NCBI RefSeq assembly: GCF_016756595.1
Contig: NZ_AP023257.1
Span: forward strand, 1,690,001-1,754,000
DNA from: Mesorhizobium sp. L-2-11
Lineage (GTDB): Bacteria > Pseudomonadota > Alphaproteobacteria > Rhizobiales > Rhizobiaceae
Reading direction: 5' to 3'
DNA: 64,000 nucleotides
Shown: positions 39,118 to 40,117 of the stretch, piece by piece
Layout of the letters: each line of letters begins with the position of its first letter
Numbering within the stretch: the stretch's first letter is position 1
Notes under the pieces: model-generated
Seen by the model: the letters and a program-made list of their open reading frames with translations, nothing else
What the model was told of the DNA's origin: nothing
Databases searched by the model: none
Position numbers and translations under genes: made by a program

Positions 39118-39193
39118 TCGTCGACGCTGATTGCTGCATGACGGCCTGGGCGGTCGTCTCTTGGCCATGGCCAATGCAAAGTCGCAAAACGAT

Positions 39194-39206
39194 TTCCTCT
39201 GCACAG
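39194..39206. repeat. Outer 13-bp inverted repeat, left copy
   Basis: TTCCTCTGCACAG here has an exact reverse complement at 39898-39910, so the pair encloses the terminal-repeat element. The following bases (GGGATTTGG against TGATTTTGA) are also alike. It may be an older, separate palindromic repeat. Confidence 0.5.
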
Positions 39207-39282
39207 GGGATTTGGTTCTTTGACTGTCGGTCACTGCCGGCCGGCCTGCAGCCGCCGATCCAACGTACACAGGCCACCACAC

Positions 39283-39378
39283 CTTCGTCATCCTAGGACG
39301 GAGCAGGAGCGAAGCGACGTCGCGGAGACCCTGGGATCTATGCCGTGACATAAGCCGAAGACTGCAGCGGCCCAGAAC
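39283..39378 (+). repeat. Left terminal inverted repeat of GIY-YIG element
   Basis: About 81 of 96 bases match, without gaps, the reverse complement of 39718-39813 (hand alignment). It contains the 10-bp palindrome GCGACGTCGC (39314-39323). Confidence 0.9.
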
Positions 39379-39437
39379 GGCGCTTGCATCCGCAATGGCC
39401 ATCCGCAATGGCGCTCCTTACGCTTCCGCGATGATCG

Positions 39438-39711
39438 GGCTATGCCACCATGACCGCGGCGCGGCACGATCTACGTCGGCGTCACCAATGATCTCGGCCG
39501 CCGCATGCCGGAGCACAAATCCGGCGAAGGCTCGCGCTTCACCAGCCGCTACGGCGTGCAGGGTCTGGTCTGGTACGAGGAATATTTCGACATTCGCGAC
39601 GCTATCCAGCGCGAAAAGTCGCTGAAGCGCTGGCTGCGGCAATGGAAGATCGAGCTGGTCGAGAAGAGCAATCCGGAGTGGTTCGAGCTTTTTCGCGGGA
39701 CGGGGTGGTAG
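39438..39711 (+). pseudogene. GIY-YIG nuclease, frameshifted near the N-terminus
   Basis: The frame ending at 39711 reads GTIYVGVTNDLGRRMPEHK from 39463, then a body ending YEEYFDIRDAIQREKSLKRW and NPEWFELF, as in short GIY-YIG domain proteins (about 90-100 residues). Upstream that frame is stopped by TGA at 39451-39453. The expected N-terminal Gly-Tyr-Ala (GGCTATGCC, 39438-39446) lies in another frame, so a one- or two-base indel between about 39447 and 39462 has broken the gene. The intact part after the shift starts at ATG 39505 (68 residues) and lacks the YVG strand, so activity is unlikely. Confidence 0.75.
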
Positions 39712-39717
39712 CGTTCG

Positions 39718-39813
39718 GTTCTGGGCCGCTGCATTCTTCGGCTGAGGTAACGTCATGGATCCCAGGGTCTGCGCCGCGTCGCTTCGCTCCTTGCTTGCCC
39801 TAGGATGACGAAG
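39718..39813 (-). repeat. Right terminal inverted repeat of GIY-YIG element
   Basis: Reverse complement of 39283-39378 at about 84% identity; begins six bases after the nuclease stop codon. Confidence 0.9.
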
Positions 39814-39897
39814 CGATGGACGCATTCGCTAGTCTCAACGGTTTGCGATTCGCCACTCACTCCGCGTTCACTGCAGATCGCCGATCTGTCAAAATCA

Positions 39898-39910
39898 CTG
39901 TGCAGAGGAA
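39898..39910. repeat. Outer 13-bp inverted repeat, right copy
   Basis: CTGTGCAGAGGAA is the exact reverse complement of 39194-39206. A 15-bp palindrome CAGATCG-C-CGATCTG lies just before it at 39874-39888. The rest of 39814-40042 shows no convincing gene. Confidence 0.5.
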
Positions 39911-40042
39911 CTCTCATGACCGTGGTCAAGAGTAATGGGTGTCGCCTCGATCTTGCCGAAATACGGCATCCACCCGGTCCAACCAGAAGCGCGCCCGTAA
40001 GAGAGGAAATCCACGGGTACGAGAGACGGCGGATTGTCTGGA

Positions 40043-40117
40043 TGGTGGGCGTGACAGGGATTGAACCTGTGACCCCTGCAATGTCAATGCAGTGCTCTCC
40101 CGCTGAGCTACACGCCC
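40043..40117 (-). tRNA. tRNA-Val (GAC)
   Basis: On the minus strand a 75-base tRNA reads GGGCGTG at the 5' end, paired with CACGCCC, with D arm GCTC-AGCGGGA-GAGC, anticodon stem-loop CTGCA-TTGACAT-TGCAG (anticodon GAC), T arm ACAGG-TTCAATC-CCTGT and an encoded ACCA end. It stands alone between the GIY-YIG element and cpdR. Confidence 0.95.

Follow-up and report, generated by a model that had tools for sequence, protein, structure and literature searches.

A stand-alone GIY-YIG nuclease gene between CGTC-tagged REPs: a decayed Mesorhizobium element and its relatives across Pseudomonadota

Bacterial chromosomes commonly carry repeats known as REPs. The enzyme of the GTAG-REPs is RAYT, which is recognised by its Y1_Tnp domain and moves without target duplication, as is also seen for the elements described below. 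GIY-YIG enzymes are hydrolytic nucleases, and we know of no case in which this family drives DNA transposition on its own. The described repeats closest to those considered here are the CGTC-REPs, found mostly in alphaproteobacteria and composed of a CGTC or TGTC tag, a stem of 8-9 bp beginning with AT and a CCA-like tail (Di Nocera et al. 2013, PMC3733652). Their dimers show one preferred orientation, and loops of lengths other than 4-5 nt are also given for them (PMC3733652). In the passages cited here, these repeats apparently have no dedicated transposase (Di Nocera et al. 2013, PMC3733652): no tyrosine transposase gene is flanked by them, associations with other transposase classes are few and fortuitous, and the CGTC-1 repeats of Neisseria are equated with dRS3 (PMC3733652). 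The GIY-YIG superfamily includes homing enzymes (PMC1564403). Among the papers listed by searches of open-licence literature, covered mostly at the level of titles and the opening lines of abstracts, we recognised none that connects GIY-YIG proteins with REPs.

The window element and its CGTC-tagged ends

The window is a 64-kb stretch (contig positions 1690001-1754000) of a 7.4-Mb genome assembled in 5 contigs, and the closest matches of the locus studied in it come from Mesorhizobium. A previous sequence-only reading described inverted-repeat ends of about 96 bp, roughly 84% matching, around a small damaged GIY-YIG nuclease gene, with no transposase, and proposed that such a nuclease could spread or maintain a repeat family as RAYT does. 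The arms were recovered by repeat search exactly where that reading had placed them, and the gene content was confirmed by Pfam. The element is composed as follows.

39283..39813, + strand: whole element, 531 bp, from end-to-end alignment with relatives elsewhere and a boundary test on 61 relatives
39283..39378, + strand: left terminal inverted repeat arm, from repeat search
39286..39340, + strand: left-end CGTC-tagged REP, from the REP finder, with tail CTA
39387..39412, + strand: 13-bp tandem duplication upstream of the gene, not in the 4 relatives aligned
39457..39711, + strand: broken GIY-YIG nuclease gene, an open frame without a proper start (ATG frame 39505-39711)
39718..39813, - strand: right terminal inverted repeat arm, from repeat search
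39756..39810, - strand: right-end CGTC-tagged REP, with a 9-bp stem, a long loop and a CCA tail

The two arms, of 96 nt each, are 84% complementary and spaced by 339 nt, and local alignment of the flanks scored 123, compared with at most 22 for shuffles (n=20). GIY-YIG is the sole recognisable gene between them: its 85-codon open frame matches PF01541 at E=2.3e-12 and its 68-aa ATG frame at E=1.3e-5, two further frames of the element region gave no Pfam match, and no transposase domain was found by Pfam inside the element. The gene is damaged at its 5' end, where small indels around the start place the first catalytic GIY-YIG motif out of frame; the window copy is dead. Its best relative (locus L105) aligns over the full length, with 86.7% identity over 541 columns. 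The locus is ordinary as one broken copy and unusual as a family.

Some other features surround the element. An outer inverted repeat of 24 nt (83%) is present at 39191-39214 and 39890-39913, and its core has exactly four occurrences in the genome, with another arm match at about 110 bp from one of these. Since this outer repeat sits in DNA missing from the aligned relatives, the element may be nested in another small repeat. A minus-strand tRNA gene lies downstream, at 40046-40117; an Rfam search over the window site returned the tRNA and one sub-threshold match only.

What the sequence-only reading did not foresee is that the ends are CGTC-tagged REPs and that the association runs through the phylum. 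Both palindromes carry the CGTC tag, at 39286-39289 and 39807-39810. It is followed by the stem, a loop of about 30 nt and a CCA-like tail. The stem is of 8-9 bp and begins with AT, as in CGTC-REPs; in the right arm it has 9 bp (ATCCTAGGG/CCCTGGGAT), and in the left arm it is one base weaker and detected only if a mismatch or G-T pairs are allowed. The tails read CCA on the right and CTA on the left, and those listed for relatives are CCA, a CCA-like tail having been demanded by the REP finder itself. The loop departs from the 4-5 nt of CGTC-REPs, measuring about 28-31 nt in almost every relative within the genus; short loops are found beside the nuclease gene in other genera. The repeats are also multi-copy, mostly as inverted dimers of one orientation; the CGTC-REP finder returned no further ones elsewhere in the 64-kb window.

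In 56 of 64 related elements the left stem is the same as the right one, where permutation expects 24. Covariation was scored at the stem positions left free by the search: these are Watson-Crick paired in 0.937 of cells as against 0.671 with arms shuffled (27 units), all four Watson-Crick pair types occurring at one position, and in a second set in 0.960 as against 0.715 (21 units). This covariation indicates that the hairpin itself is conserved. The expected stem of the window's left arm is not the minimum-energy DNA fold, and a typical short-loop REP folds with z -3.83. Since the free energy of the window's own arms is no better than that of shuffles (z 1.05 and 0.12), the case for a hairpin rests on the covariation in relatives.

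Copies, boundaries and empty sites

The right arm (39715-39810), used as a query, has at least 48 matches in its own genome, counting itself and the left arm, a lower bound given that 40 of 82 first-look candidates were scored. The repeats are thus present at other sites, and the possibility that they might occur only here, which the sequence-only reading had named as fatal to its proposal, did not hold. Among the arm matches listed, 11 pairs stand no more than 600 bp apart, with tags outward in nine and inward in two. PF01541 was found at three places of this genome, namely the window element, a 734-aa frame, which we take to be UvrC, and a broken fragment at 2688375. The CGTC-REP finder returned no CGTC-REP at the UvrC-like locus. 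The broken fragment (2688295-2688642 on the window's contig; loci L003 and L011) has one CGTC-REP, on one side. The two small GIY-YIG remnants found here thus both adjoin such repeats. The single Y1_Tnp protein of the genome lies more than 200 kb from every arm match listed.

A scan of public genomes yielded 271 loci, of which 80 were kept, 76 of them titled Mesorhizobium and 75 with 500 bp available on both sides. Intact relatives, which the sequence-only reading had suggested looking for, are common: an open 95-aa frame is present in 72 of the 80 loci, and open genes stand between such ends in many Mesorhizobium genomes. Of the 75 loci, nearly all from Mesorhizobium, 66 have a CGTC-REP upstream of the gene and 68 have one downstream, 62 being flanked on both sides. 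The kept loci contain 175 REPs in 480 kb, and shuffled sequence contains none; their density reaches 0.9-1.0 per locus in the bins next to the gene versus 0-0.08 in other 250-bp bins up to 3 kb. Tags point outward in 70/77 upstream and 73/84 downstream REPs (all 80 loci), and inverted flanks scoring at least 40 occur in 73 of 76 relatives.

The boundaries of the unit were examined on 61 elements with one REP per side, whose median tag-to-tag length is 509 bp. Among their 1830 pairwise alignments, 1381 terminate within -8 to +2 of the left tag and 1308 within -3 to +8 of the right tag; the others reach less far or go beyond, 121 pairs running more than 30 bases past a tag. Pairs from within one genome mostly end at the tags as well, the best being 88-93% identical and the others 74-85%. 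T precedes CGTC and A follows GACG in 64/64 elements, so the true ends may extend slightly beyond the tag. No target-site duplication of 2-9 bp was found beyond the permutation range, either in 64 elements or in 35 dimers. Compared with insertion sequences, the element has terminal inverted repeats and neither a known transposase nor a target-site duplication.

The sequence just outside the tags shows some regularity. A nearly constant CTT precedes CGTC in the 64 related elements; beyond it, from -12 to -8 outside the left tag, pyrimidines are favoured, C being found at -9 in 45 elements and at -8 in 41; the mirror positions on the right side have G at +8 in 50/64 and at +9 in 44/64. The pyrimidine bias beyond CTT possibly reflects a target preference.

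Shorter units were surveyed in 4 x 200 kb of REP-rich chromosomes of the genus, containing 121 REPs. All 40 two-REP clusters have their tags outward; 33 of them measure 155-228 bp and seven 491-507 bp. There are in addition 35 single REPs and two clusters of three REPs, one of which, of 557 bp, contains no GIY-YIG frame. A GIY-YIG frame is present in each of the seven long pairs, visibly broken in at least two of them; unrelated genes between the repeats, the other outcome that the sequence-only reading had considered damaging if coupled with a lack of empty sites, were therefore not seen in the long pairs of these 800 kb. The 33 clusters of 155-228 bp could not accommodate the gene, and nothing similar to the nuclease was detected in them. 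By their sequences, these gene-free REP dimers share the end architecture of the element.

Filled and empty sites were compared at the window site, at two other Mesorhizobium sites and in the same 4 x 200 kb, a comparison that the sequence-only reading had asked for, and presence or absence is clear. At the window site, REPs were found in 0 of 29 relatives (whole loci), several of which retain both flanks without the element, with diverged intergenic DNA. One homologous Mesorhizobium site carries the full element in four genomes, a REP dimer of about 155 bp in others and no REP in six. Similarly, the element stands between sufB and sufC in Azospirillum lipoferum and is absent from A. ramasamyi, A. 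oryzae and strain B510 (95-97% identical), which have only a short spacer there. Two Sphingobium plasmids are gene-free at another site, one with a single fused REP and one with none, and a gene-free Sinorhizobium K101 site retains a REP-like palindrome. These solitary REPs may be scars left by excision, or REPs of older date. Divergence between the intergenic flanks of different species is too great for the insertion points to be placed to the base. Collectively, these comparisons describe the element as a discrete repeated unit that, as judged from alignment, ends at the CGTC tags and is present or absent at homologous sites.

At the Mesorhizobium site represented by locus L130, gene-free versions in other Mesorhizobium (L254-L260) often carry a CTCCCCC...GGGGGAG-type repeat instead, as if such intergenic sites collected several repeat families.

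The nuclease family and its association with REPs

The intact nucleases are minimal. Y6, Y17, R27 and E64 are invariant in 12 relatives and correspond to the two Tyr motifs, the central Arg and the Glu of GIY-YIG enzymes, with roles assigned after PMC1564403. Pfam recognises GIY-YIG in intact relatives, plus T5orf172 over the same residues, and neither Pfam nor NCBIfam returned a separate DNA-recognition domain in three of them. The best PDB sequence match is 1zg2 (8.4e-7). The AlphaFold model is of low confidence (mean pLDDT 65), and its structure matches, to UPF0213, UvrC, I-TevI and Slx1 domains, are weak, none having E<0.001, and are supportive at most. Median dN/dS is 0.07 for the 72 open frames and is below 1 in all 36 disjoint nearest pairs, values that are biased low since loci were chosen by protein similarity; by this comparison, the nuclease is under purifying selection. 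A phage origin was not supported, a match being found in 1 of 50,697 phage records.

The association extends well beyond the genus. The window fragment has relatives in 89 of 199 genomes of the family, and a profile search matched 109 of 398 Pseudomonadota genomes. We fetched 30 loci across the phylum with located genes, 11 of them from the window's own family and including the window element itself. REPs within 500 bp or inverted flanks were present at 26 of the 30, and at 17 of the 19 from outside the family. Twenty further loci, picked roughly in listing order, gave 18/20, hence 35/39 outside the family in all. REPs proper are present at 22/30 and 12/20 of these loci; the other positive loci were counted by inverted flanks, and the flanks inspected are mostly CGTC-like palindromes. 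At random points in 20 regions of such genomes, REPs were found at 14/500 and inverted flanks (score at least 40) at 0/500. REPs or inverted flanks were also present at 28 of 29 other loci of the family.

REP sequences linked to the gene differ among genera across the phylum, and the association persists. Tag orientation is another matter: at the 29 other family loci, 18 upstream tags are outward and 16 inward, with 29 and 28 downstream, and upstream of the 50 phylum loci 32 are outward and 11 inward. The orderly outward orientation is a feature of Mesorhizobium, and orientation is loose outside it because several REPs often stand on each side. Some members have no recognisable REP or inverted flanks (L042, L075, L079, L090, L093, L343, L346 and L312).

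A plasmid collection contained 43 matching records out of 72,556. Twelve of 20 fetched loci have clear REPs or inverted flanks, including those of S. meliloti, A. lipoferum, N. aromaticivorans, Sphingobium, Aeromonas and N. gonorrhoeae; two are weak (Planktothrix and Spirosoma) and six have none, namely R. tumorigenes and five resembling other GIY-YIG kinds. The N. gonorrhoeae record (L317) has roughly a dozen CGTC-REPs in an array that encloses an open GIY-YIG frame. A tree was built from 66 rows, after two of the five other-type loci and five further rows had been dropped as too short. It splits off the other three of these five, L321, L322 and L327, which stand in other contexts, from the remaining 63 rows, with a bootstrap that is not settled; 54 of these 63 have REPs or inverted flanks and nine do not. 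An Asn-x-x-Trp motif near the C-terminus is kept in 49 of the 54.

REP load, taken as the count of CGTC-REP pattern hits per genome, ranges from 0 to several hundred. Within the family its median is 25 in gene-bearing genomes (n=89) versus 7 in gene-free ones (n=110; p=1.5e-17), with p=1e-8 once 4 hits per gene are subtracted and the count is expressed per Mb. In mixed genera, the gene-bearing side is higher in 30/38 cases, or 26/38 after correction. Outside the family, the medians are 13.5 (n=96) versus 4 (n=285; p=7e-14), and 13 of 18 mixed families agree while five show the opposite. Eleven of the 63 family genomes with at least 20 hits were gene-negative at first. A better profile found the gene in one of these 11 and in two of 12 REP-poor 'negatives'. 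With 3/23 recovered overall, the first family search evidently misses some genes. Of the 58 genomes from other families that reach at least 20 hits, 13 have no gene. Gene-free REP-rich genomes of the family show that REPs can persist without the nuclease. Y1_Tnp, the RAYT domain, occurs in 23 of the 199 family genomes and in five of the 28 with at least 40 hits. Within these genome sets, REP load, as measured by pattern counts, follows gene presence.

Proposed function, alternatives and comparison with known systems

We consider it likely that the locus is a decayed small mobile element whose nuclease does for CGTC-REPs what RAYT does for GTAG-REPs. In its intact form the element would have an outward-tagged CGTC-REP at either end and a single gene, encoding a stand-alone GIY-YIG endonuclease of about 95 aa. 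This nuclease may recognise the REP hairpins and cut at the tagged ends, and the element, or a copy of it, would then be inserted elsewhere with no target duplication, host repair or replication probably taking part; the short dimers could be mobilised in trans. Since GIY-YIG enzymes hydrolyse DNA, transposase-like joining by the nuclease alone is unlikely, and this activity would come from elsewhere. The RAYT-like role put forward by the sequence-only reading is supported, with movement itself as the presumed step, and the GIY-YIG nuclease makes a good candidate as the enzyme dedicated to CGTC-REPs, which it would move. To a wider claim we give chances slightly above even: that a solitary GIY-YIG endonuclease, unaided by any transposase, recombinase or reverse transcriptase, mobilises itself together with large numbers of non-autonomous CGTC-REPs across Pseudomonadota, and perhaps in Cyanobacteria and Bacteroidota (one weak locus each), acting on hairpin ends without target duplication. 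If true, this would be a new class of DNA mobile element and would supply the missing enzyme of CGTC-REPs. A specific candidate enzyme would explain the origin of these repeats and their wide variation in number, and fits the gap stated in 2013 in the cited passages, where CGTC-REPs stand without a dedicated enzyme.

The gene could also be a selfish one of the homing type, with REPs or REP dimers as the target that it cuts and into which it is then copied, the REPs not being spread by it. Such behaviour would suit a superfamily that includes homing enzymes (PMC1564403), the N. gonorrhoeae gene lying inside its array, the gene-free sites with a single fused REP (one Sphingobium plasmid) or a REP-like palindrome (Sinorhizobium K101), and the frequent presence, in other genera, of several REPs of both orientations on each side; this explanation gains some ground from orientation being loose outside Mesorhizobium. 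Nevertheless, we find it unlikely: in Mesorhizobium, a single unit of constant layout comprises the gene and its two REPs, with DNA that differs beyond the tags, other gene-free sites have no REP, Pfam found no separate DNA-binding domain, and homing by itself leaves unexplained why REP load follows the gene.

Alternatively, another enzyme could move the REP dimers, the nuclease gene having been captured between two REPs and riding along. Gene and ends would travel as a unit either way, and REP-rich genomes without the gene exist, but this possibility looks improbable in view of the same gene being the cargo in 7/7 long two-REP pairs, of an association that spans the phylum with different REP sequences, and of Y1_Tnp being present in just 23/199 family genomes and 5/28 REP-rich ones; moreover, the cited passages of PMC3733652 report no CGTC-flanked tyrosine transposase gene and only few, fortuitous associations with other classes. 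More improbable still is a host nuclease, serving the cell by cutting REP hairpins, with flanking REPs that regulate its gene and mobility as an incidental matter. Purifying selection would agree with it, as would the nearest structure matches, which are UPF0213 and UvrC-type GIY-YIG domains, whereas the patchy presence (89/199 genomes), the several copies at different sites of one genome, the occurrence of broken copies and the absence of the gene from homologous sites speak against it.

A mobile element with its own nuclease, the reading we prefer, can be set beside several known systems. RAYT may be regarded as its working analogue, not its relative. In RAYT/REPIN systems, as here, an enzyme gene is flanked by palindromic REPs and short REP dimers occur elsewhere; they have a Y1 HUH transposase and a GTAG tag, whereas here the pair is GIY-YIG and CGTC, which places the element outside that group. 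Homing endonuclease genes and Penelope-like elements also have a GIY-YIG nuclease in mobile DNA, but neither an intron or intein host, nor a separate DNA-recognition module, nor a reverse transcriptase was seen here, introns having been looked for with Rfam over the window site. Slx1-like and UPF0213 proteins are minimal single-domain GIY-YIG nucleases, like the enzyme of the element; the Slx1-like group is without the C-terminal Asn (PMC1564403), whereas the element nuclease mostly keeps Asn-x-x-Trp. Finally, apart from the long loop of about 30 nt in this genus, the window ends match the CGTC-REPs of Di Nocera et al. 2013, and Neisseria, S. meliloti, A. lipoferum and N. aromaticivorans, all named in PMC3733652, have the gene beside CGTC-type palindromes in our data. 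For these repeats, to which the cited passages of PMC3733652 assign no dedicated enzyme, the GIY-YIG nuclease is a candidate.
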